Of a stretch of 64,000 bases of DNA, positions 3,890-14,701 are shown piece by piece (position 1 is the first letter of the stretch; each line of letters begins with the position of its first letter). This DNA comes from Demequina sp. B12 (GTDB taxonomy: Bacteria > Actinomycetota > Actinomycetes > Actinomycetales > Demequinaceae): the NCBI RefSeq assembly GCF_028823635.1, contig NZ_JAPEHU010000002.1, forward strand, positions 558,001 to 622,000, written 5' to 3'. Under the pieces are notes generated by a model. That model was not told the DNA's origin, did no database searches, and saw nothing but the letters and a program-made list of their open reading frames with translations. A program made the position numbers and the translations under genes.

Positions 3890-5094
3890 GCGTCCTCCTT
3901 AGGCAGCATGTCGAACCATCGCGCGGCCTGCTCCACGTCCTTGTCTCCACGACCTGACAATGTCACCAGAACTGTGGCATCGGGACCAAGCTCATTGCCC
4001 AGACGGATTGCTCCGGCCAGTGCGTGGGACGACTCGATAGCCGGCATGATTCCCTCGGTACGAGTCAACAGGCGGAAGGCGTCCATAGCGTCGGCATCGG
4101 TCACCGGCCAGTATTCAGCGCGGCCGATGCTTGCAAGCCACGTGTGTTCAGGACCCACGCCCGGGTAGTCCAGGCCTGCGGAAATGGAGTGGGAGGGAAG
4201 CGTCTGGCCTTCCTCGTCCTGCAGGATGAAGGAGCGCGAGCCATGGAGGATGCCGGGGCGTCCGCCCGTCAGCGTTGCGGCGTGCCGTCCAGTTTCGACG
4301 CCATCACCTGCAGCTTCACAACCGATCAAACGCACGTCAGTGTCGTCTAAGAACGCGTCGAAGGAGCCGATTGCGTTGGAGCCGCCTCCAATACATGCCA
4401 CCACCGCGTCGGGCAGGCCACCCAAGTCAAGCATCTGCGCACGGGACTCTACGGAGATGATCCGCTGGAAGTCGCGAACCATCGCGGGGAATGGGTGCGG
4501 ACCTGCTGCAGTCCCAAAGACGTAGTTCGTGTGGTCAACATTGGCCACCCAGTCCCGGAAGGCTTCGTTGATCGCGTCACGAAGAGTACGGGTACCGGTC
4601 GCCACGGGAATCACTTCAGCCCCGAGCAAGCGCATGCGAGCGACATTGAGCGCCTGGCGCTCGGTGTCTTCCTCGCCCATATAGATCACGCACTCGAGGT
4701 CCATCAAAGCAGCGGCGGTCGCCGTGGCAACGCCATGCTGGCCGGCGCCCGTCTCCGCGATGACGCGAGTCTTGCCGATGCGCTTGGTCAGGAGTGCTTG
4801 ACCCAGCACGTTGTTGATCTTGTGCGATCCAGTGTGATTGAGATCCTCACGCTTGAGGAGAACCCGTGCACCACCAGCGTGCTTGGCGAACCGGGGCACG
4901 TCAGTGATGATGGACGGCCGTCCCGTGTAGTCCCGGGCCAGGCGTACAAGTTCCTCAGTGAAGGACGGATCGATCCGCGCCTTCTCATATGCGTCCGTGA
5001 GTTCATCCAGCGCTGCCATGAGGGCCTCTGGTACAAACTGGCCGCCAAACTCTCCAAAGAAAGGCCCGGGCGCTGACTGAAGGGACTCTGTCAC
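3886..5094 (-). CDS. trpB: Tryptophan synthase beta subunit
   Basis: PLP enzyme that condenses indole with serine to tryptophan, in an alpha2-beta2 complex with TrpA. The 402 residues include [11 protein letters not shown], with Lys92 as the Schiff-base lysine, and the phosphate-binding glycine stretch CIGGGSNA. The C-terminal TLSGRGDKD motif is also present. It starts with GTG overlapping the trpC stop (GTGA) and overlaps trpA by 4 bases. Length and motifs indicate the standard TrpB1 type. Confidence 0.97.
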
Positions 5095-5900
5095 GGGCGC
5101 ACCGCCCGGAGTGCGGGGTGTGCACCCGCGGCAACCATCTCAGCAACAGCGTGGCGGGGGTCCTTGTGCTTCACCAGGGCTTCCCCCACGAGAACCGCAT
5201 CCGCACCCATCCGGGCGTACTCAACGACGTCATGACCGTCACGAATGCCGGACTCTGCGACTCGCACGATTCCTTCAGGAATGATGGGCGCCACACGCTG
5301 GAAGGTGTGCCGGTCCACTTCGAGGGTCTTGAGGTTCCTTGCGTTGACGCCGATCACGCGCGCTCCCGCATCGGCCGCCCGCTTAACTTCTTCCTCGTCA
5401 TGCACTTCGACAAGGGCGCACATCCCGAGGGAGTGCACTCGCTCGATCAGGCTTTCAAGTGCCATCTGGTCCAACGCCGCAACGATGAGAAGCACCACAT
5501 CAGCGCCGTGTGCCCGCGCTTCCCAGACTTGATAGGGAGTAACGATGAAGTCCTTGCGCAGAATGGGAATCTCCACCTTGGAACGGACCGCGTCGAGGTC
5601 GTCCAGGGAGCCTCCAAAGCGGCGCTCTTCGGTCAGGACCGAAATGACGGATGCGCCGCCGGCTTCATACTCCGTGGCGAGCAGCGCTGGGTCGGTGATC
5701 GAGGCAAGCGAGCCCTTCGAGGGGCTCGAACGCTTGACCTCAGCGATGACAGCGACTTCGTCGCGAGCCAACATTTGCCGGGCATCAATGGCACCGGGGA
5801 GCCGTGAAGCCCGCTCCTTCAACTGGTCCATGGGCGTTGCCGCCTCACGCACAGCGAGGTCCTCCCGGACACCTGCAATGATGCTGTCGAGCACGCTCAT
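5091..5900 (-). CDS. trpC: Indole-3-glycerol phosphate synthase
   Basis: Closes the indole ring of 1-(2-carboxyphenylamino)-1-deoxyribulose 5-phosphate to give indole-3-glycerol phosphate. The 269-residue TIM barrel contains [13 protein letters not shown] with the conserved Glu and Lys, the second Lys in LRKDFI, and the [13 protein letters not shown] segment. It is a stand-alone TrpC without a TrpF domain; in actinomycetes the TrpF reaction is usually done by PriA/HisA. ATG is preceded by GGAGAGG at suitable distance. The 114 bases upstream hold no other gene; a nine-codon reading frame (5926-5897) ends by overlapping the trpC ATG. Confidence 0.96.
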
Positions 5901-6014: not shown

Positions 6015-6470
6015 TCACGGAGCAAGGAATGGCGCGAAGGGCGGCACATTGCGCAACACAAAGAAGAGCGCCAACGTCAGGGCCAACACCACGCCATGCC
6101 ACGGCTTGACTCCCCACGGGCGCGAGGGGTAGCCGCGTGTCCAACGCCACCACCTCCACCACAGTGCCGCTAGCACCGGCACCGCTGCCACGACGAGCGG
6201 GTTCATATCCCAGGCAGCGCTCACATCACCATGAGCCATGGAGTAGACCGCGCGAGTACCCCCACACCCGGGACACCACCATCCGGTCATCGCCAGGAAC
6301 TGACATGACGCCACTCCCCCGCCTGGCTCGTACGGATTTCTGGCGACCACCACCGCACCGCCGACGACAACGGAAGACGCCACCACCCACGGCCAGGCTC
6401 GGGCGTCGGCGACCAAGCCGCGCACCAGCGCTACCCCCCGCAACGCGCGGCGAGAGTGTGGTTCACGCAT
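6015..6470 (-). CDS. DUF2752 membrane protein (copy 1)
   Basis: Protein of 151 residues with three or four hydrophobic segments and the DUF2752 signature GWWCPGCGGTRAVYSMAHGD. The Cys pair (CPGC) and following Arg-His residues suggest a metal- or redox-related site. The function of the family is not established. It follows a DUF4190 gene by 9 bases and precedes trpC. Its C-terminus (LRNVPPFAPFLAP) closely matches that of the second DUF2752 protein at 7141-7581, indicating duplication. Start ATG at 6470; no strong Shine-Dalgarno sequence is seen. Confidence 0.85.
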   Translation of the reverse strand: MREPHSRRALRGVALVRGLVADARAWPWVVASSVVVGGAVVVARNPYEPGGGVASCQFLAMTGWWCPGCGGTRAVYSMAHGDVSAAWDMNPLVVAAVPVLAALWWRWWRWTRGYPSRPWGVKPWHGVVLALTLALFFVLRNVPPFAPFLAP

Positions 6471-6479
6471 CGTTGTCGC

Positions 6480-7022
6480 TTACACGGAGTAGAGCATGGT
6501 GCCGTAGCTGAACACTGTCCACACGACAGACACCAACGCGCCGAGCGTGGCGAAACCTCCGGTCACCAACCCCGCGATCGCCATTCCACGTCCTGATCGG
6601 TAGATGCCGTCCGTCTCCTTGAGCGCAAGCACGCCAAGGATGACCGCTGTCACTCCCGCGGGGAGCATGAGGAACCAGTAACACAGGAACAACGAGACGA
6701 TTCCGGTCACCATGGATGCCACGGCCTTGCCCGAGTTGACGGGAGACGAAGGCGTGGCGGCTGGCGGGAACGCTGGCTGGGGTGCTCCAGGAGCCATCGG
6801 CTGTGGAGGCAAAGGCTGGGGGTGCGGCGGCCAGGCTTGCGATGGGGGCGTCGGGGGCGCTGCCAACGGCGGAGGATATGCACCAGGCGACGGCGGTGGA
6901 GGTGGCCCAGTGGTGCCGGAGCCGTCCGAGTCGAGCCCGCGATAAGGCGATTCGTCGTCGGTCCCCCGAGATTCGGGTTCAGGCTGCTGCGATCCCGGCG
7001 GTGGCGGTGGCAGGTCTGACAT
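6480..7022 (-). CDS. DUF4190 membrane protein with proline-rich N-terminus (copy 1)
   Basis: A 180-residue protein. About the first 100 residues are rich in Pro, Gly, Ser and Ala (MSDLPPPPPG onward) and probably disordered and cytoplasmic. The last 75 residues form two hydrophobic hairpin segments with the DUF4190 pattern (SMVTGIVSLFLCYWF; LGVLALKETDGIYRSGRGMAIAG). ATG at 7022 is preceded by AGGGGGACC and is preferred over upstream in-frame starts at 7058. Proline-rich DUF4190 proteins are common in actinomycetes and have no proven role. It forms a pair with the DUF2752 gene downstream. Confidence 0.82.
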   Translation of the reverse strand: MSDLPPPPPGSQQPEPESRGTDDESPYRGLDSDGSGTTGPPPPPSPGAYPPPLAAPPTPPSQAWPPHPQPLPPQPMAPGAPQPAFPPAATPSSPVNSGKAVASMVTGIVSLFLCYWFLMLPAGVTAVILGVLALKETDGIYRSGRGMAIAGLVTGGFATLGALVSVVWTVFSYGTMLYSV

Positions 7023-7140
7023 CGAGGTCCCCCTCTTGTTGTCCTCGTGATGCATCACGCATCTGTTCGCCCAGAAAACTACCGCATGCGGCTGACACCA
7101 CCACGAGACGACCGCAAGACAATGGCGGCGGCGTCGTCAG

Positions 7141-7581
7141 TCACGGCGCAAGGAACGGTTGCAACACCGGGATGTTGCGAAGAACCCAAAACACTGCCAG
7201 AAGGACGGGCAGTCCCACCGCGAGCCACAGCGGAATACGCGGCAAAGCGGTCCCCCGCCACGCGGCGACCCACCACAACACGATGAGCGTCGCAAGCAAG
7301 GGCAAGATCACCACGACGACGACAGGATTCAAAGCGAGTGCCGCCCACACATCCCCATGGGCGAGTTCGTGGGTGGCCCGTAGACCACCGCAGCCAGGGC
7401 ACCACATCCCTGTCAACGCAAGCCACATACATCCAGGGAAGTGCCCCGGCGCATACGGGTCGCCCCATGCGTTGTAGGCGGTCGCGCCCATAGCAAGGGC
7501 CGATGCTGCGGCGGGCGCCATGAGGCGCCGCACCCGGGAACGGGACGTCCCGGGCGTCGCAGCATCGGCCCAAGCCGACAC
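7141..7581 (-). CDS. DUF2752 membrane protein (copy 2)
   Basis: About 146 residues with the same DUF2752 signature as copy 1 (GMWCPGCGGLRATHELAHGD) and a matching C-terminus (LRNIPVLQPFLAP). The reading frame is open to 7677, but that start would lie inside the preceding DUF4190 gene. GTG at 7581, two bases beyond that gene's stop codon, fits the local gene spacing. An ATG at 7521 is also possible, so the start is uncertain. The 118 bases between this stop and the next DUF4190 start hold no recognised feature. Confidence 0.8.
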   Translation of the reverse strand: MSAWADAATPGTSRSRVRRLMAPAAASALAMGATAYNAWGDPYAPGHFPGCMWLALTGMWCPGCGGLRATHELAHGDVWAALALNPVVVVVILPLLATLIVLWWVAAWRGTALPRIPLWLAVGLPVLLAVFWVLRNIPVLQPFLAP

Positions 7582-7583
7582 TT

Positions 7584-7949
7584 CTAGAATCCGTAGGTGT
7601 CGAGCGAAATTGCTCCTGTTGCTAGGAGCACTCCATTCAGGATCAGGCTCAACGCAAACAGGCCGACGCCGACCCAACCAAGGATCACACCGATCTTGCC
7701 CAACTGGCCGTTTGTTGCCAGGCCCTGTGACTCCGCTTCCTGCGACTTCTTACCGACGATGATCGCGGGGATCGCCGTGAAAATACCGCAACACACGATG
7801 CCTAGGATCCCGAGCACCAATGCCCAGGTACCCAAGTTGTTCTTCGACTCATTACCGCCGTTGAACCCTCCGGGAGGGGGCGGGGTGGTGCCGTAAGGAG
7901 GCATCGCTCCGCCTGGAGGACCTGCGGGAGGCTGCTGGAAATCTGACAT
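7584..7949 (-). CDS. DUF4190 membrane protein with Pro/Gly-rich N-terminus (copy 2)
   Basis: A 121-residue protein. A Pro/Gly-rich N-terminal segment (MSDFQQPPAGPPGG onward, to about residue 38) is followed by two hydrophobic segments (LGTWALVLGILGIVCCGIF and KIGVILGWVGVGLFALSLI) separated by a polar loop, the DUF4190 arrangement. The start is well defined by AAAGGAGAAAACGC before the ATG. It is the first gene of the duplicated DUF4190-DUF2752 unit between trpE and trpC. Function unknown. Confidence 0.84.
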   Translation of the reverse strand: MSDFQQPPAGPPGGAMPPYGTTPPPPGGFNGGNESKNNLGTWALVLGILGIVCCGIFTAIPAIIVGKKSQEAESQGLATNGQLGKIGVILGWVGVGLFALSLILNGVLLATGAISLDTYGF

Positions 7950-8022: not shown

Positions 8023-8259
8023 CTACTCCAGGGGCTGGCCGTGACCGAGCGCGCGCAACGCAGCGCCCGCCACCAACGCCACGACGGCGATGCCTACACC
8101 AACCCACACCAGCGCCCACACGGGGATCGCGATGCCGAACGACACCAGCAGGGCGGCGATAATGAGGCCCACATTCGTGACCCAGGCAGCCGTCGTCCGG
8201 CCGTGGTTCGTGTGCGCAACCTCAGGGAGATCTTCCGGGGCGATCTCAATGCTCGACAT
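8023..8259 (-). CDS. HGxxPAAW-type small membrane protein
   Basis: A 78-residue protein with two transmembrane segments (residues about 25-45 and 48-70) and the motif HGRTTAAW near the N-terminus. This matches the small HGxxPAAW family that sits next to trpE in many actinomycetes. The usual Pro is replaced here (TTAAW). The role is unknown. ATG is preceded by GAGGAGTATTC. It lies 36 bases downstream of trpE, inside the trp operon. Confidence 0.8.
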   Translation of the reverse strand: MSSIEIAPEDLPEVAHTNHGRTTAAWVTNVGLIIAALLVSFGIAIPVWALVWVGVGIAVVALVAGAALRALGHGQPLE

Positions 8260-8295: not shown

Positions 8296-9840
8296 CTAGT
8301 CAGACTCCGCAGGTACAAGCCTCGCAGCAGTGCGAATCGCGCGGATCATGGCCGCGGCCTTGTCCTTCGTCTCTTGGTCTTCGTTGGCGGGCACGGAGTC
8401 AGCAACGACACCTGCACCCGCTTGCACGTGTGCAGTGCCGTCCTCGATCAGCGCCGTACGAATCGTGATGGCCATGTCCATGTTCCCCGCGAAGTCGAAG
8501 TAGCCGACGGCACCTCCGTAATAGGCACGGCGAGTGGGCTCGATTTCGTCGATCAACGCAATCGCGCGCGGCTTAGGTGCACCGGACAACGTTCCCGCAG
8601 GGAAAGTCGCCGTCAACACATCAAGCGGGCCGTAGCTCTCTTCGAGTTCCCCCACAACGGTCGAACAAATGTGCATGATGTGGCTGTAACGGTTCACCTT
8701 CATGAACTCCAGCACTTCAACGGATGTGGGTGCGCACACTTTCACCAGATCATTACGTGCGAGATCAACCAGCATGACGTGCTCGGCGATCTCCTTGGGG
8801 TCCGCGAGGAGTTCCTCTTCGAGGGCACGGTCCTCGCCTGGGGTTTCGCCTCGCGGGCGCGAGCCAGCGATAGGGAAAGTAGAGACCTTGCGGTCCTTCA
8901 CCGCGGCGAGAGACTCTGGGCTTGCGCCCACCACGGCGAAGTCGCGCCCCTCGTCGTCTCGAAGTTGAAAGTAATACATGTAAGGCGACGGGTTAAGAGT
9001 GCGCAAGACCCGGTAGACATCCAGAGGGCGCGCAGGGCAGTCGACATCGAAACGCTGAGAGGGCACCATCTGGAAAACCTCTCCATCCCTGATGGCTTCC
9101 TTGGCGAAGCGAACCGCAGCCTCGTACTCCCCTGGCGCACTGCGCTGGCGCACCACAGGCTCGTCCCCGTCCTCAGCGAGCACGGAGATGGCGCCCGCAG
9201 GTGCGGAGAGCAACGCAGACTCCATACGGTCCAAGCGCTCAACAGCGTCGGCATACGCGCCTTCAATACCGGTCGCCTCGGCGTTGGCATTCACCGCGTT
9301 CGCCATCAGCCACACTGATCCATCGTGATGATCAATCGCGGCGATGTCCGTGGCGAGCATCAGCATGACATCGGGAACGTCCACCTCACGTGGCGCCTTT
9401 GCAGGCAGGGTTGGCTCCCATTGGCGGATGATGTCCCACCCGAGCACGCCCACCATTCCACCCGTCAGCGGTGGCAAACCAGGGATGGGCTCCGAGTGCA
9501 GTTCCGTCAACACATTGCGAATCGCGTCCAGCGGCGCTCCGTCGGAAAGCCCGACGGGGACATCCCCTGCCCACGTCGCGTCGTCACCCCGTACCGAGAG
9601 CGTGGCTCGCGAGTTCACACCGACGAAGGAAAAGCGTCCTCGTGAGCCATCCGGATCTGCCGACTCCAGGATGAAAGTTCCCGGACGCTCATCAGCCAGG
9701 GCCCGGTACACAGCAACCGGCGTGAGCCCGTCCGCAAGCAAGCGGCGCACCACGGGGACGACCCGTCGCGACGCTCCAATCTCAATGAACCGTTCGAGCG
9801 CAGGCCACGTAGCGCCCCACTCCACCGACACTGCTTCCAT
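8296..9840 (-). CDS. trpE: Anthranilate synthase component I
   Basis: Converts chorismate to anthranilate with ammonia supplied by the TrpG amidotransferase; first committed step of tryptophan synthesis. About 514 residues. The N-terminal part carries TFILESADPDGSRGRFSFVG, with the LLES/S region of the tryptophan feedback site. The C-terminal chorismate-binding domain has FQMVPSQRF, PSPYMYYF, IAGSRPRG, ARNDLVKV and FPAGTLSGAPK. ATG at 9840 was chosen; GTG at 9846, overlapping the hisI stop as GTGA, is an equally plausible coupled start. No trpG or trpD lies in the window, so these must be elsewhere. Confidence 0.95.
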   Translation of the reverse strand: MEAVSVEWGATWPALERFIEIGASRRVVPVVRRLLADGLTPVAVYRALADERPGTFILESADPDGSRGRFSFVGVNSRATLSVRGDDATWAGDVPVGLSDGAPLDAIRNVLTELHSEPIPGLPPLTGGMVGVLGWDIIRQWEPTLPAKAPREVDVPDVMLMLATDIAAIDHHDGSVWLMANAVNANAEATGIEGAYADAVERLDRMESALLSAPAGAISVLAEDGDEPVVRQRSAPGEYEAAVRFAKEAIRDGEVFQMVPSQRFDVDCPARPLDVYRVLRTLNPSPYMYYFQLRDDEGRDFAVVGASPESLAAVKDRKVSTFPIAGSRPRGETPGEDRALEEELLADPKEIAEHVMLVDLARNDLVKVCAPTSVEVLEFMKVNRYSHIMHICSTVVGELEESYGPLDVLTATFPAGTLSGAPKPRAIALIDEIEPTRRAYYGGAVGYFDFAGNMDMAITIRTALIEDGTAHVQAGAGVVADSVPANEDQETKDKAAAMIRAIRTAARLVPAESD

Positions 9841-9842
9841 AT

Positions 9843-10202
9843 TCACTGAGCTTCCGCCAACGTCACGTCGAGCGAGCCGCCCGCCTCGAAACAGCTGTGC
9901 GTTCCTGTGTGACATGCCGGTCCCTGCTGTGTCACCGACAACAGCAATGCGTCACCGTCACAGTCAAGGCTCACGGCGTGAACATGCTGGACATGACCGG
10001 AGGTGTCGCCCTTACGCCACAACTCTTGGCGAGACCGCGACCAGTACACGGCACGGCCCGTCGTCAACGTCAGGTGAAGCGCTTCGTCGTTCATCCAGGC
10101 CACCATGAGGACATCTCCGGTGGCGTGTTCCTGCACGACCGCGCACACCAAACCATCAGGCGTGCGCTTCAAGCGATCTGCAATGCTCGGCTCCAAAGGC
10201 AT
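9843..10202 (-). CDS. hisI: Phosphoribosyl-AMP cyclohydrolase
   Basis: Zn/Mg-dependent hydrolase that opens the adenine ring of PR-AMP, third step of histidine synthesis. A single-domain protein of 119 residues, not fused to HisE. Visible family motifs are [18 protein letters not shown], the Asp cluster DCDGDALL for metal binding, and the two Cys of [17 protein letters not shown] precedes the ATG. Its stop touches or overlaps the trpE start, linking histidine and tryptophan genes, an arrangement typical of actinomycetes, although hisF is separated from it here by two ABC genes. Confidence 0.95.
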
Positions 10203-10275: not shown

Positions 10276-12063
10276 CTACTCGCGGGTTTGCGAAACCCAC
10301 GCTCCATAGAGAGCAGCGTATGTCCCGCCTGCTGCGACAAGGTCTCGGTGAGATCCAACCTCGATCAGTTCGCCCTGCTCCATCACGGCCACAAGATCAG
10401 CGCGCTCCGCCGTAGACAAACGGTGGGCAATCACCACTGCGGTCCGACCCTGCATCAGCCCCTCCAAGGCACGGGAAATGCGGACCTCCGTTGCAGGGTC
10501 AACAGCACTTGTCGCCTCATCCAGAATCAGCAAGTCCGGATCACGCAAGTACGCTCGCGCGATCGACACCAGCTGGCGTTCACCAGCACTCAGCAGTTCA
10601 CCGCGAGGACCGACGGGAGAATCAATCCCCTCAGGCATGGCCTCAAGCCACCCCTCGAGTCCAAGCGACTCAAACGCGGACAACGACCGCTGAGCCAAGT
10701 CTTCGGAGCTCAGGTGAGGCAATGCATAGGCAAGGTTCGACAAAATCGTGCCATCAAACAGGAAGCCCTCTTGCGGGACAACTGCAATCGAGCGGCGCAG
10801 CGAATCCGCTGGAACGGCTTTCAAGTCCACCCCACCGACACGCACTTCGCCCTCCGAGGGGTCGAAGAAACGAGACATGAGACGAGCGAGCGACGTCTTA
10901 CCTGAACCGGTCGCACCGACCAACGCGATGCGTTTCCCCGACGGCACTTTGAGGTCGATCCCCTTCAGGACCTCCGGGCCTCCGGGGTATGTCAGGCGCA
11001 CATTGTCGATGTCCAAATCACCATGGCCGTGAGGAATGGCGGTGCCATCCTCACCCGGGTCCACGACGGTGACTTCCTGATCCACCAACTCCAAGACACG
11101 GCGCCAGCCAACGATCGCGCGCTGCATCTCCGCTAGCATCTCGATGATCCACATCAGGGGCCCTGAGAACTGGTAGACCAAGAACGCCATCGCCACCACG
11201 GTGCCCACAGACATCATCCCGTTGATAGCCATCACCGTTCCGGTGACCAACGCCAGTCCGGTAGCAAGTGACTGGCCCACCACAGTCGACGAAAAGTTCA
11301 CTGAGGCGAGAATCGATGCCTTGCGCTCGGCTCGGAGAATGTCGTCGTTCTCCTCGTTGAGCTGGTCACGCATCCGCTGCTGCACTCCATAGGCACGGAT
11401 CGTCGACACTCCGACGATCTGCTCAGAGGTACGTCCCAACAGGTCAGCCATCTGCTCCCGCACATGGCGGAAGGCCTTCTGCACACGGGGCTGAATCCAC
11501 AAGAGCGAGCCCACCATCGGCAAGAACGCCAGCAGGACCACCAGCGACACCTGCCAGGAGTAGGCGACCATCACGGCATACACGACGACCGACTCCAACG
11601 CGGCGACAATCATCGCCGCGCCGGTCCACTGCATCAGGTCACGCATGGTCTCCACGTCGCCCGTGACTCGGGAAACGTAGCGGCCACGTTGCTCTTCATT
11701 CTGGGTGAGCACCGACAGTTCGTGAACTTTGTCGAACGCCCGCAATCGCAGCGTCGCCAGGCCCTTCTCAGAGGCTTCAACCATCCGCACGCGGACCCGC
11801 CAGGCAAGCAGTGAAGTAATGAGCAGCACCACCGCACCCGCTGCCGCGTACTTGACGACGAGATCGACGTTGACACCCCCAGGTGCGAGCAGACCCAAGT
11901 CCGTCACACGCTGGGTCAGGAACGGCACAGCGGCACGCCCCGACGCGGCGAGAGCCGCAAGAGTCAACGTAATCCAGAGTCCCGCCTTCATCTCCGGGCT
12001 CACTTGGAAGCCGCGCTTGAGCAGGCCACGGACGGTAGTGATATCCACGGGTGATGCCGTCAT
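10276..12063 (-). CDS. ABC exporter half-transporter, catalytically canonical Walker B
   Basis: A 595-residue protein with an N-terminal six-helix type I exporter domain (about 1-330) and a C-terminal nucleotide-binding domain. Walker A is GATGSGKT (383-390), Walker B LLILDE with Glu516 present, and the H-loop is IAHRLS with His547. The signature motif is altered to LSAGE (491-495) instead of LSGGQ. Its ATG overlaps the stop of the partner gene (ATGA). Together with the partner's degenerate Walker B and H-loop, this is the pattern of a heterodimeric exporter (TM287/288, BmrCD-like). The substrate cannot be read from sequence; multidrug or lipid export is typical. Confidence 0.92.
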   Translation of the reverse strand: MTASPVDITTVRGLLKRGFQVSPEMKAGLWITLTLAALAASGRAAVPFLTQRVTDLGLLAPGGVNVDLVVKYAAAGAVVLLITSLLAWRVRVRMVEASEKGLATLRLRAFDKVHELSVLTQNEEQRGRYVSRVTGDVETMRDLMQWTGAAMIVAALESVVVYAVMVAYSWQVSLVVLLAFLPMVGSLLWIQPRVQKAFRHVREQMADLLGRTSEQIVGVSTIRAYGVQQRMRDQLNEENDDILRAERKASILASVNFSSTVVGQSLATGLALVTGTVMAINGMMSVGTVVAMAFLVYQFSGPLMWIIEMLAEMQRAIVGWRRVLELVDQEVTVVDPGEDGTAIPHGHGDLDIDNVRLTYPGGPEVLKGIDLKVPSGKRIALVGATGSGKTSLARLMSRFFDPSEGEVRVGGVDLKAVPADSLRRSIAVVPQEGFLFDGTILSNLAYALPHLSSEDLAQRSLSAFESLGLEGWLEAMPEGIDSPVGPRGELLSAGERQLVSIARAYLRDPDLLILDEATSAVDPATEVRISRALEGLMQGRTAVVIAHRLSTAERADLVAVMEQGELIEVGSHRDLVAAGGTYAALYGAWVSQTRE

Positions 12064-13934
12064 CCGATGTACCCCGCTTCCTGTTCCTTCTGTCGCTTCG
12101 AGTCTTCCTCGTACGCGAGCACCAGCTCGCGATAGCCGGCGTCACGAGCCACCAAATCGTCATGCGTGCCAGCATCGACAACACGGCCCGAGTCCACATG
12201 CACCACATGATCCGCGAGCTGAATCGACGCGAGACGGTACGCAATGATCAACACTGTGGGCCCCTGGCCGTCGGCGCTCAGTCCACGAAGGATCTCCTGC
12301 TCGACGCGTGGGTCAACGGCACTCGTCGCGTCGTCAAGCACCAGAACGCGCGGCTGGCGCACCAGCGCGCGAGCCAACGCGAGTCGTTGGCGCTGGCCTC
12401 CGGAGAGGTTCATTCCTCGCTCCGCAAGGGTCGCGTCCAAGCCCGATTTGCCGTCCTTCGCGAGACGTTCCACCACGTCCACGACGTTCGCCTGGTCGAG
12501 GGCCTTCCAGACCTGCTCATCCGAATAGTCCTCGCCCAAGGTCACGTTCTCACGCACACTTCCGGCGAACACAAATGCCGTTTGCGGCACCAAGGCCACG
12601 TGGTCGCCAAGGCTCGCAATGACCTCCAGATCCGTATCGTCCAATGTGATCGCACCCTGAGTAGGGCGTGCAAGACGTGTCGCCGCAAGCGCGACAGTCG
12701 ACTTGCCGGAGCCCGTGGCACCCACCAGCGCCGTGACCGTTCCAGGTCGCAGCTCAAGGGAGACATCGGTCAGGATCGTTGCGAGGTTGCCGTCGCCGTC
12801 GTCAGCACCAATGTCGGCGCCAGAGAATGCCAACGCACCTGCCCCAGCACGCTCCACTTCGACGGATCCCGGCTCATCGATCTCAGTGGCAGCCTGCGCG
12901 ATCTCCCCCACTCGGCGAAACGCCACCAACGCCTGCGGCATCTGGCCCAATACCCAGCCAAGTCCACGAATGGGGACGGCCATGAGAGTCACCAAGTAGA
13001 TCGCGGACACCACGTTTCCTACGGACACATAGCCGGCGTCGGCACGGATGGCTCCCACAATCATCAGTGCGACCGAACCCAGCGGAACTACCACATCCAT
13101 CATGGGTTCAAACCATGCAGAGGTCTTCCCCACGCGGATGTCGGCATCGCGCAAACCAAGGACGGCGTCCCTAAATCGATCGCTCTCGATCTTCTCGGCA
13201 CCGAGAGCCTTCACGACAGTGCCACCCTCAAAGCTTTCGTGGGCGATCGTCGAGACGTCCGCGCGACGCGACTGACCAAGATCCCAGCGTGGGGTGATGA
13301 TCTTCTCGTACGCCAAGTTGATCGCAAAGATCACCGGCACGACCGCCAGCCCTGTCACTGCAAGCCACGGATCCATACGCCACATTGACCAGCCCGCCGC
13401 GAACATCATCACGAACGACCCCACGGTAAACGCGAAGGGATGCAGCGTGTTCGTCGCTGACTCCGAATCCGACGACATCGCGGATAGTAGCCGCCCGGAG
13501 GGATTTGACCGGTGCCATCCCAGCGGAAGGCTGGCGAGTGCATCGGCCACTACCCGACGGTGGCGTGCCGCGACACCCGCCACAGCAATGCCTTGGACAC
13601 CGCGACGCAGGCCCACGAGCACGGCATTCACCACGCCGATCGCGAGAAAGACCGCACCCGCGATCCAGATCGCAGCCACAGGGTCCTGCGTGAAGTCTCC
13701 CCACACGCCTCGAATAGGGTCGCCGGCGACTGCGGGGATGACAACATCGTCAGTGATGTCCCCCAACAGGGTTCCAAACACCACGGTCAAAATGGAGAAG
13801 ATCGCAGCAAAGAGGATCGCCAAAGAGAAACGCAGGCGCTCGGTCCGCATCGCGTGGCGGATCAGTTGTCCTGCTTTACGGTTAAACGACCCCGTGAGTC
13901 GATAGTCTGCTGCCGCGTCGTTGGGGCTGCTCAC
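12060..13934 (-). CDS. ABC exporter half-transporter with degenerate catalytic site
   Basis: A 624-residue protein with a six-helix exporter domain (about 30-340) and a nucleotide-binding domain. Walker A is GATGSGKS (405-412) and the signature is canonical LSGGQ (510-514). The Walker B motif reads VLVLDD, with Asp535 where the catalytic Glu should be, and the H-loop reads IAYRLAS, with Tyr566 replacing His. The protein is therefore expected to bind ATP in its own Walker site without efficient hydrolysis and to work as a heterodimer with the next gene. GTG at 13934 overlaps the hisF stop (GTGA) and has GAGG upstream; an in-frame start at 13952 would lie inside hisF. Confidence 0.92.
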
Positions 13935-14701
13935 CGCACCTCGATTCCGCACTCGCGCATGTAGTTCTTGACGTCGCTGATCTTCAGGTGTCCAAAGTGA
14001 AACACGCTTGCTGCCAACACCGCATCTGCTCCGGCCCGTGCAGCCTCGACGAAGTGCTCGACGTTGCCGGCGCCGCCGGAAGCAATGAGCGGGATAGAAA
14101 CCTGCTCGCGCACGTGGCCCAGCATCTCCAGATCAAAGCCATCCGTGGTGCCGTCCGCGTCCATGGAGTTCAACAAGATCTCACCGGCACCGAGCTCCTG
14201 GCCGCGAGTGGCCCACTCGACCGCATCGATACCCGTCCCCTGGCGCCCACCATGGGTCGTGACTTCAAAGCCCGAGGCAGTGGTCACCCCATCGCGGCAG
14301 CGACGTGCGTCCACTGACAGCACCAACACCTGGGCACCGAAACGTGCTGAGATCTCCCGAATCAACTCCGGCCGCGCGATCGCTGCCGTGTTAACTCCCA
14401 CCTTGTCTGCCCCCGCCCGGAGTAGCCGGTCGACATCCTCAGGCGTGCGAACGCCACCTCCGACGGTCAACGGCACAAAAACCTGATCTGCGGTGCGCCG
14501 CACGACGTCATAGGTCGTGTCGCGATTGGCGGAAGAGGCGGTGACATCAAGGAAAGTCACCTCATCGGCTCCCTCCGCACCATACGCCTGTGCGAGCTCT
14601 ACGGGGTCGCCGGCGTCACGGAGGTTCGTAAAGTTGACACCCTTGACGACGCGGCCAGCATCGACATCCAGGCAAGGGATAACCCGAACTGCAGTACTCA
14701 C
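13931..14701 (-). CDS. hisF: Imidazole glycerol phosphate synthase cyclase subunit
   Basis: Cyclase half of IGP synthase; with HisH it makes imidazole-glycerol phosphate and AICAR from PRFAR. A (beta-alpha)8 barrel of 256 residues beginning [20 protein letters not shown], with catalytic Asp12 and the second Asp in LSVDARR. GTG at 14701 overlaps the stop of the FKBP gene (GTGA) and has GGAGG four bases upstream, so this start is preferred over an in-frame start at 14719. hisH and hisA are not in the window. Confidence 0.95.

Follow-up and report, generated by a model that had tools for sequence, protein, structure and literature searches.

Paired DUF4190 and DUF2752 genes in a variable slot of the Demequina trp operon point to a co-inherited membrane module

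The trp operon of Demequina sp. B12 carries, between trpE and trpC, two successive pairs of small membrane protein genes, each a DUF4190 gene followed by a DUF2752 gene, in the window (the whole 64,000-nucleotide stretch of DNA analysed here). We propose that the two families form a co-inherited, exchangeable two-protein membrane module with a shared cysteine site, most likely as a physical complex, a reading to which we give a probability of roughly 0.55. The co-inherited two-gene module is well supported, and we infer the physical complex, its outward face and its thiol chemistry. Two families without a described function thus gain a partner and a testable site and become linked to the dispanins, a superfamily whose members in animals, the IFITM proteins, block the entry of viruses. 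The first-pass annotation had proposed the families as partners, which is borne out by their co-occurrence far outside this locus and by their coming and going together in the operon slot.

The four genes lie on the minus strand within 6015-7949, the coordinates given by that annotation, and score above the curated Pfam cut-offs. The slot and its edges comprise the following features:

8296..9915, minus strand: trpE, anthranilate synthase component I (PF00425 E 1e-87; NF010086 705 bits, cut-off 693)
8023..8259, minus strand: HGxxPAAW-family small membrane protein, one edge of the variable slot (NF041681 E 5.7e-10)
7584..7949, minus strand: DUF4190-B, the partner in pair B (PF13828 E 5.9e-12)
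7141..7581, minus strand: DUF2752-B, 146 aa, probable GTG start at 7581 (PF10825 E 1.5e-16 for the ORF 7141-7677)
6480..7022, minus strand: DUF4190-A, the partner in pair A, probable ATG start at 7022 (PF13828 E 4e-13; ORF open from GTG 7058, 6480-7058)
6015..6470, minus strand: DUF2752-A, 151 aa, ATG start (PF10825 E 7.3e-21)
5091..5900, minus strand: trpC, indole-3-glycerol phosphate synthase, the other slot edge (PF00218 E 1.2e-80)

Read along the minus strand, the genes run trpE, the HGxxPAAW gene, DUF4190-B, DUF2752-B, DUF4190-A, DUF2752-A, trpC, trpB, trpA and lgt, and in ORF coordinates pair B spans 7949-7141 and pair A 7058-6015. The DUF2752 profile PF10825 scores 74.4 and 60.6 bits in the two copies against a gathering score of 27, covering 49 and 47 of its 49 positions, and the DUF4190 profile PF13828 scores 49.4 and 45.6 bits in the two partners against a gathering score of 35. 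DUF2752-B probably starts at GTG 7581, directly past the DUF4190-B stop, and ATG 7022 is the probable start of DUF4190-A. With these preferred starts, the genes within a pair are separated by 2 nt (B) and 9 nt (A), and 73 nt precede pair B, 118 nt separate it from pair A and 114 nt follow pair A. No promoter-like site was found inside the four-gene array, and terminator-like sites numbered 3 against 1.8 expected. DUF4190-B consists of a Pro-rich N-terminus and a two-helix hydrophobic domain with a double cysteine at residues 53-54; DUF4190-A has a long Pro-rich N-terminus and a single cysteine in its first hydrophobic helix. The key residues of DUF2752-B are C51, C61-P-x-C64-G, R68 and R135. 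The genome holds only these two DUF2752 genes and has nine DUF4190 matches.

Across 24 further genomes of the genus, the slot between the HGxxPAAW gene and trpC holds no pair in 9, one pair in 14 and two pairs in 1 (G019). DUF2752 occurs in 15 of these genomes, in every case in the trp operon with DUF4190 or CD225 directly upstream, and the remaining 9 have the trpE, HGxxPAAW and trpC neighbours with no DUF2752, DUF4190 or CD225 gene between them. The two families are gained and lost jointly in this slot. With slot states assigned by hand, the best TrpC tree (31 rows) requires 13 state changes, between the minimum possible of 7 and a shuffled mean of 17.5, and the clade holding the window TrpC (100/99), which is 97% identical to that of D. 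globuliformis (L122), contains the states B+A, B, B and CD225-type. Closely related Demequina with zero, one or two pairs at the same place thus provide a natural experiment. Further double arrays were found in D. oxidasica (L127) and in a Demequinaceae MAG (L132). Where the slot is empty, the HGxxPAAW gene still stands between trpE and trpC.

This fast turnover could also mean that the genes are neighbours by chance or are carried along by a recombination hotspot and share no function, and Streptomyces species do carry DUF2752 in the same place without an adjacent partner. We consider this improbable, since none of the 15 occupied slots holds an orphan DUF2752, none of the 9 empty ones an orphan partner, and the same pairing recurs without trp markers in many families. 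The co-occurrence outside the locus comes from an adjacency survey, a check that the first-pass annotation had proposed, and it favours partnership. The survey covered 193 DUF2752 stretches from the window and 200 loci; a few of these stretches repeat a gene in truncated form, as happens once for DUF2752-A. A DUF4190 or CD225 partner lies at most 450 bp upstream in 59 of the 193, of which 40 have trp-operon markers and 19 have no trp marker in the fetched flank; another 70 are trp-operon DUF2752 genes without a partner, mostly in Streptomyces, and the remaining 64 lack both a partner and trp markers.

The 40 partnered loci with trp-operon markers might suggest a role of the pair in making tryptophan or in regulating its synthesis, and another small membrane protein of a trp locus, TrpP of Corynebacterium glutamicum, affects [Fe-S] cluster formation according to the part of the source available (PMC11995493). 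However, that part describes TrpP as SdpI-like (PMC11995493). The 19 pairs lacking a trp marker, together with the 9 genomes of the genus that retain trpE, HGxxPAAW and trpC and have no pair, also speak against this role, which we regard as very unlikely.

CD225 (dispanin; PF04505, IFITM superfamily) takes the place of DUF4190 upstream of DUF2752 in other Demequina and in other Actinomycetota. Searching 296 Actinomycetota genomes gave 27 CD225 matches, 25 of them over the cut-off. Matching CD225 places to DUF2752 places by eye, we found that 15 of these 25, spread over 15 of 20 genomes, immediately precede a DUF2752 gene on the same strand. A sixteenth (G262) opens a tandem of two CD225 genes that leads into DUF2752, and 9 are not near DUF2752. 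No natural fusion of DUF2752 to a partner was seen in the loci examined. A plasmid search returned 4 records for DUF2752, all from actinobacterial genera, and 1 record for the CD225 partner. Distances in the two proteins are correlated (Mantel r = 0.52, 56 pairs, p = 2e-4), also within the 27 Demequina pairs (r = 0.67), the 20 DUF4190-type Demequina pairs (r = 0.61; p = 2e-4 each), the 24 CD225-type pairs (r = 0.53, p = 2e-4) and the 7 CD225-type Demequina pairs (r = 0.78, p = 0.0022), all of these figures including the species history common to both partners. Phycicoccus jejuensis (L143) has both a CD225-DUF2752 and a DUF4190-DUF2752 pair at one locus, on opposite strands and with no trp markers.

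Other small membrane-domain families, DUF4234 (PF14018) and TM2 (PF05154), also stand beside DUF2752, differing from the pairs described here both in family and in gene order. A neighbour scan of 60 unpaired non-trp stretches yielded 57 upstream and 58 downstream ORFs, with the downstream ORF of L103 left out; TM2 and RDD each account for 6/57 upstream ORFs and DUF4234 for 16/57 downstream ORFs. Among 89 loci taken from an evenly drawn sample of the phylum, 17 have DUF4190 or CD225 upstream and 11 a DUF4234-like gene plus DUF4190 downstream; a DUF4234-like gene is the sole neighbour in 12, trp markers are the sole feature in 9, and 39 show no neighbour of the kinds sought. TM2 was found once in this sample, by a pattern that proved too strict, against 6 by Pfam. 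We also observed a three-gene variant in distant Actinomycetota (L072, L085, L088, L095-L099, L101, L110, L119), in which DUF2752, mostly with the motif CLxCGxTRS, is followed about 1 kb downstream by DUF4190, with a DUF4234-like gene between them in the loci read; the DUF4190 proteins read from these loci have a cysteine-rich N-terminus.

Pairs A and B descend separately. The first-pass annotation had read the array as a tandem duplication, and the phylogeny of the two copies that it had called for contradicts this: A and B are not closest relatives, and an A+B clade is rejected both by the tree of 29 concatenated pairs (AU p = 1.3e-4) and by that of the partners alone (p = 0.0085). Forcing the clade on the DUF2752 tree costs 32 log units and gives AU p = 0.086, so that the DUF2752 data taken by themselves also lean against A+B without reaching the 0.05 level. 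A recent duplication of one ancestral pair within the operon would agree with this last value, with the same gene order occurring twice and with the homology of the DUF2752 copies, which share 48% identity over 108 aa (BLASTP E 1e-20; 43-48% across comparisons). However, the two DUF4190 proteins match each other by BLASTP only at chance level (best E 1.0), and DUF2752-B is far closer to that of another genome, L026 (73% identity), than to DUF2752-A. We regard such a duplication as extremely unlikely, the pair phylogeny having contradicted it. The motifs WCPGCGG, AHGD and PFLAP, which the first-pass annotation had noted as shared, are indeed present in both DUF2752 copies; yet close forms occur in most of the Demequina DUF2752 proteins examined, so that the motifs do not point to a recent duplication.

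Judged by sequence, pair B is the usual pair of the genus, grouping with L122 of D. globuliformis and L026. In the 96-row DUF2752 tree, DUF2752-B lies inside the Demequina DUF4190-type clade, sister to L026 (100/92) and with L122 (100/99), and DUF4190-B is 87% identical over 67 columns to the partner in L122. DUF2752-A is instead sister to L015, from another genome of the genus (96/96, 49% identity), whose partner is also the nearest relative of DUF4190-A (46% over 63 columns); one neighbour for both halves is what would be expected if pairs travel whole. A and L015 also group in the pair tree (97/94), within a larger group that includes Streptosporangiaceae pairs (97/93); the deeper placement in these trees is unsure because the branches are long and the proteins short.

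Pair A would have joined the usual pair B by transfer or have persisted as an older paralogue, rather than arising by local copying. It is a tentative possibility, rated below even odds, that the genus ancestor already had A as a paralogous pair, which most species then lost, with no later transfer involved. It would account for L015, of the same genus, having an A-type pair alone, and the empty slots indicate that the pair is often lost or never gained. Against it, the closest TrpC relatives of the window (L122 and L026) have B only and L013 has a CD225 pair only, so that several losses would be needed, and A and L015 group with the Streptosporangiaceae pairs.

The partner cysteines form the basis of the proposed site. 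We compared 57 distinct partner domains located at most 450 bp upstream of DUF2752, after dropping a truncated second copy of the window partner B. Within their first 34 matched residues all 57 have a cysteine, and 38 have a double one; in one (L034), the domain is cut by the contig end and the counted cysteine lies in the second helix. A cysteine is present in the first hydrophobic helix of all 56 adjacent domains for which that helix is in the fetched DNA, making the cysteine-based site that had been suggested from the window a plausible one. Among DUF4190 domains that are linked to DUF2752 and non-adjacent, 13/15 have a cysteine in this region, and among unlinked ones 22/91 (3 with a double cysteine). 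The aligned cysteine block is found in 32/32 adjacent versus 4/91 unlinked DUF4190 domains, and in 23/25 adjacent (it misses L034 and L035) versus 6/8 unlinked CD225 domains. A phylogenetic test of the link between cysteine and adjacency found 2 independent pairs on supported branches and was not significant, being underpowered; few independent events underlie the link. The only invariant column among 22 aligned partners corresponds to C54 of DUF4190-B. Within the genome of the window, the two partners differ by their first-helix cysteine from the other DUF4190 proteins examined, as none of 6 examined among the 7 other genes has one. Runs of DUF4190 genes also occur away from DUF2752, four at G008:C11:24856-26751 (L229) and two at G000:C30:265658-266430 (L006), with a cysteine in one of the six domains.

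On the DUF2752 side, five positions are invariant in 13 diverse rows (C32, C42, C45, R49 and R116, equivalent to C51, C61, C64, R68 and R135 of the protein). In the larger set of 149 rows, the invariance of C61, C64 and R68 is partly by construction, since the 188 stretches of the cysteine count were filtered on CxxCG and the search profile was seeded by the motif and the following Arg; C51 and R135 lie outside the filter. In the same motif-filtered set, the three cysteines are kept in 69 trp and 60 non-trp stretches without an adjacent partner, for example in Streptomyces trp operons, so that the cysteine site may not need the partner. Two DUF2752-like proteins (L118 and L119) lack one or both CxxC cysteines and are possibly decayed or repurposed. 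CPxCG is a usual motif of zinc knuckles, and this retention with or without a partner would also suit a structural zinc knuckle or disulphide in DUF2752, with no redox or metal-handling role and no relation to the partner cysteine. The occurrence of a first-helix cysteine in every visible adjacent partner domain argues against such a structural site, which we consider rather unlikely.

The AlphaFold2 model of DUF2752-B (pLDDT 86.7, pTM 0.72) has helices at residues 13-39, 52-57, 62-74, 78-84, 86-109, 118-135 and 138-144, boundaries that put the CPxC motif (61-64) at a helix start. Over 149 DUF2752 rows, the cysteine loop averages 1.95 K+R and 3.06 D+E and the next loop 3.56 K+R and 0.41 D+E, which suggests that the cysteine loop faces outside and the next loop inside. 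DUF4190-B is modelled poorly (pLDDT 60.8), the low-confidence model setting the double cysteine at the end of the first helix. For the DUF2752 fold, Foldseek gave no match at E <= 0.001 and the best VIA Z among 9 chains compared was 3.4; a profile search of solved structures returned 0 matches for DUF2752 and none significant for the partner (best E 0.029, by name a designed protein). With no clear likeness to a solved structure, no chemistry of DUF2752 can be read from its fold. In its CxxC motif with an Arg four residues past the second Cys, near a membrane face, DUF2752 may resemble the DsbB/VKOR thiol oxidoreductases; the searches run gave no fold or sequence match to DsbB or VKOR.

As a plausible mechanism, DUF2752, a three-helix protein, would act as one membrane module together with a hairpin protein of dispanin-like build, which is DUF4190 here and CD225 elsewhere. 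In Demequina, the module is encoded in the variable slot between the HGxxPAAW gene and trpC. C51 and the C61-P-x-C64 motif of DUF2752 would lie in the predicted outward loop, with CPxC opening a helix, and could form a shared thiol site with the single or double cysteine in the first helix of the partner. On the outward-facing side of the membrane, such a site may carry out chemistry of a redox (disulphide) or metal kind. A comparison with IFITM3 speaks against this geometry. The double cysteine of IFITM3 lies towards the cytosol, and an IFITM3-like cytosolic position would set the partner and DUF2752 cysteines on opposite faces. In animal IFITM3, this double cysteine is S-palmitoylated, as stated in the part of the dispanin paper available (PMC3282796).

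The CD225 proteins read have the same build as DUF4190-B, with a Pro-rich N-terminus and a two-helix domain, mostly with a double cysteine in the first helix; the CD225-style double cysteine is present in DUF4190-B, and DUF4190-A has a single one. The window partners are nevertheless DUF4190 and not CD225, only DUF4190 having matched at E up to 0.1, and no CD225 match was found anywhere in this genome. NF040945 ('CCC motif membrane protein') matches 10/22 aligned partner proteins weakly; DUF4190-B scores 18.2 bits, far under the cut-off of 65, and DUF4190-A has no match. In the literature searched, there was no mention of DUF2752 (PF10825, IPR021215), DUF4190 (PF13828, IPR025241) or 'CCC motif membrane protein', and no function or partner was described for DUF2752. 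The available part of the dispanin paper leaves the bacterial double cysteine unexplained and does not mention operons or gene neighbourhoods (PMC3282796). It is conceivable, if doubtful, that in bacteria the dispanin (IFITM) superfamily has DUF2752 as its standing partner; if so, the IFITM family would descend from half of an exchangeable bacterial membrane module.

The kinship of the CD225 partner with IFITM, together with the patchy presence of the pair and the swapping of unlike variants in one slot, might point to a module of defence or immunity against phage or bacteriocin, comparable to the antiviral animal dispanins IFITM1-3. Mycobacterial IFITM proteins act against influenza virus in human cells, as reported in the accessible portion of the source (PMC4488726). 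However, none of the four window proteins matched any PADLOC family at E up to 0.1, the location is a housekeeping operon, and DUF2752 has long been retained in Streptomyces trp operons; we give a defence role little credence. Elsewhere in the window, at 10276-13952, two adjacent long ORFs beside hisI resemble a two-subunit ABC exporter, the first of them confirmed by Pfam.
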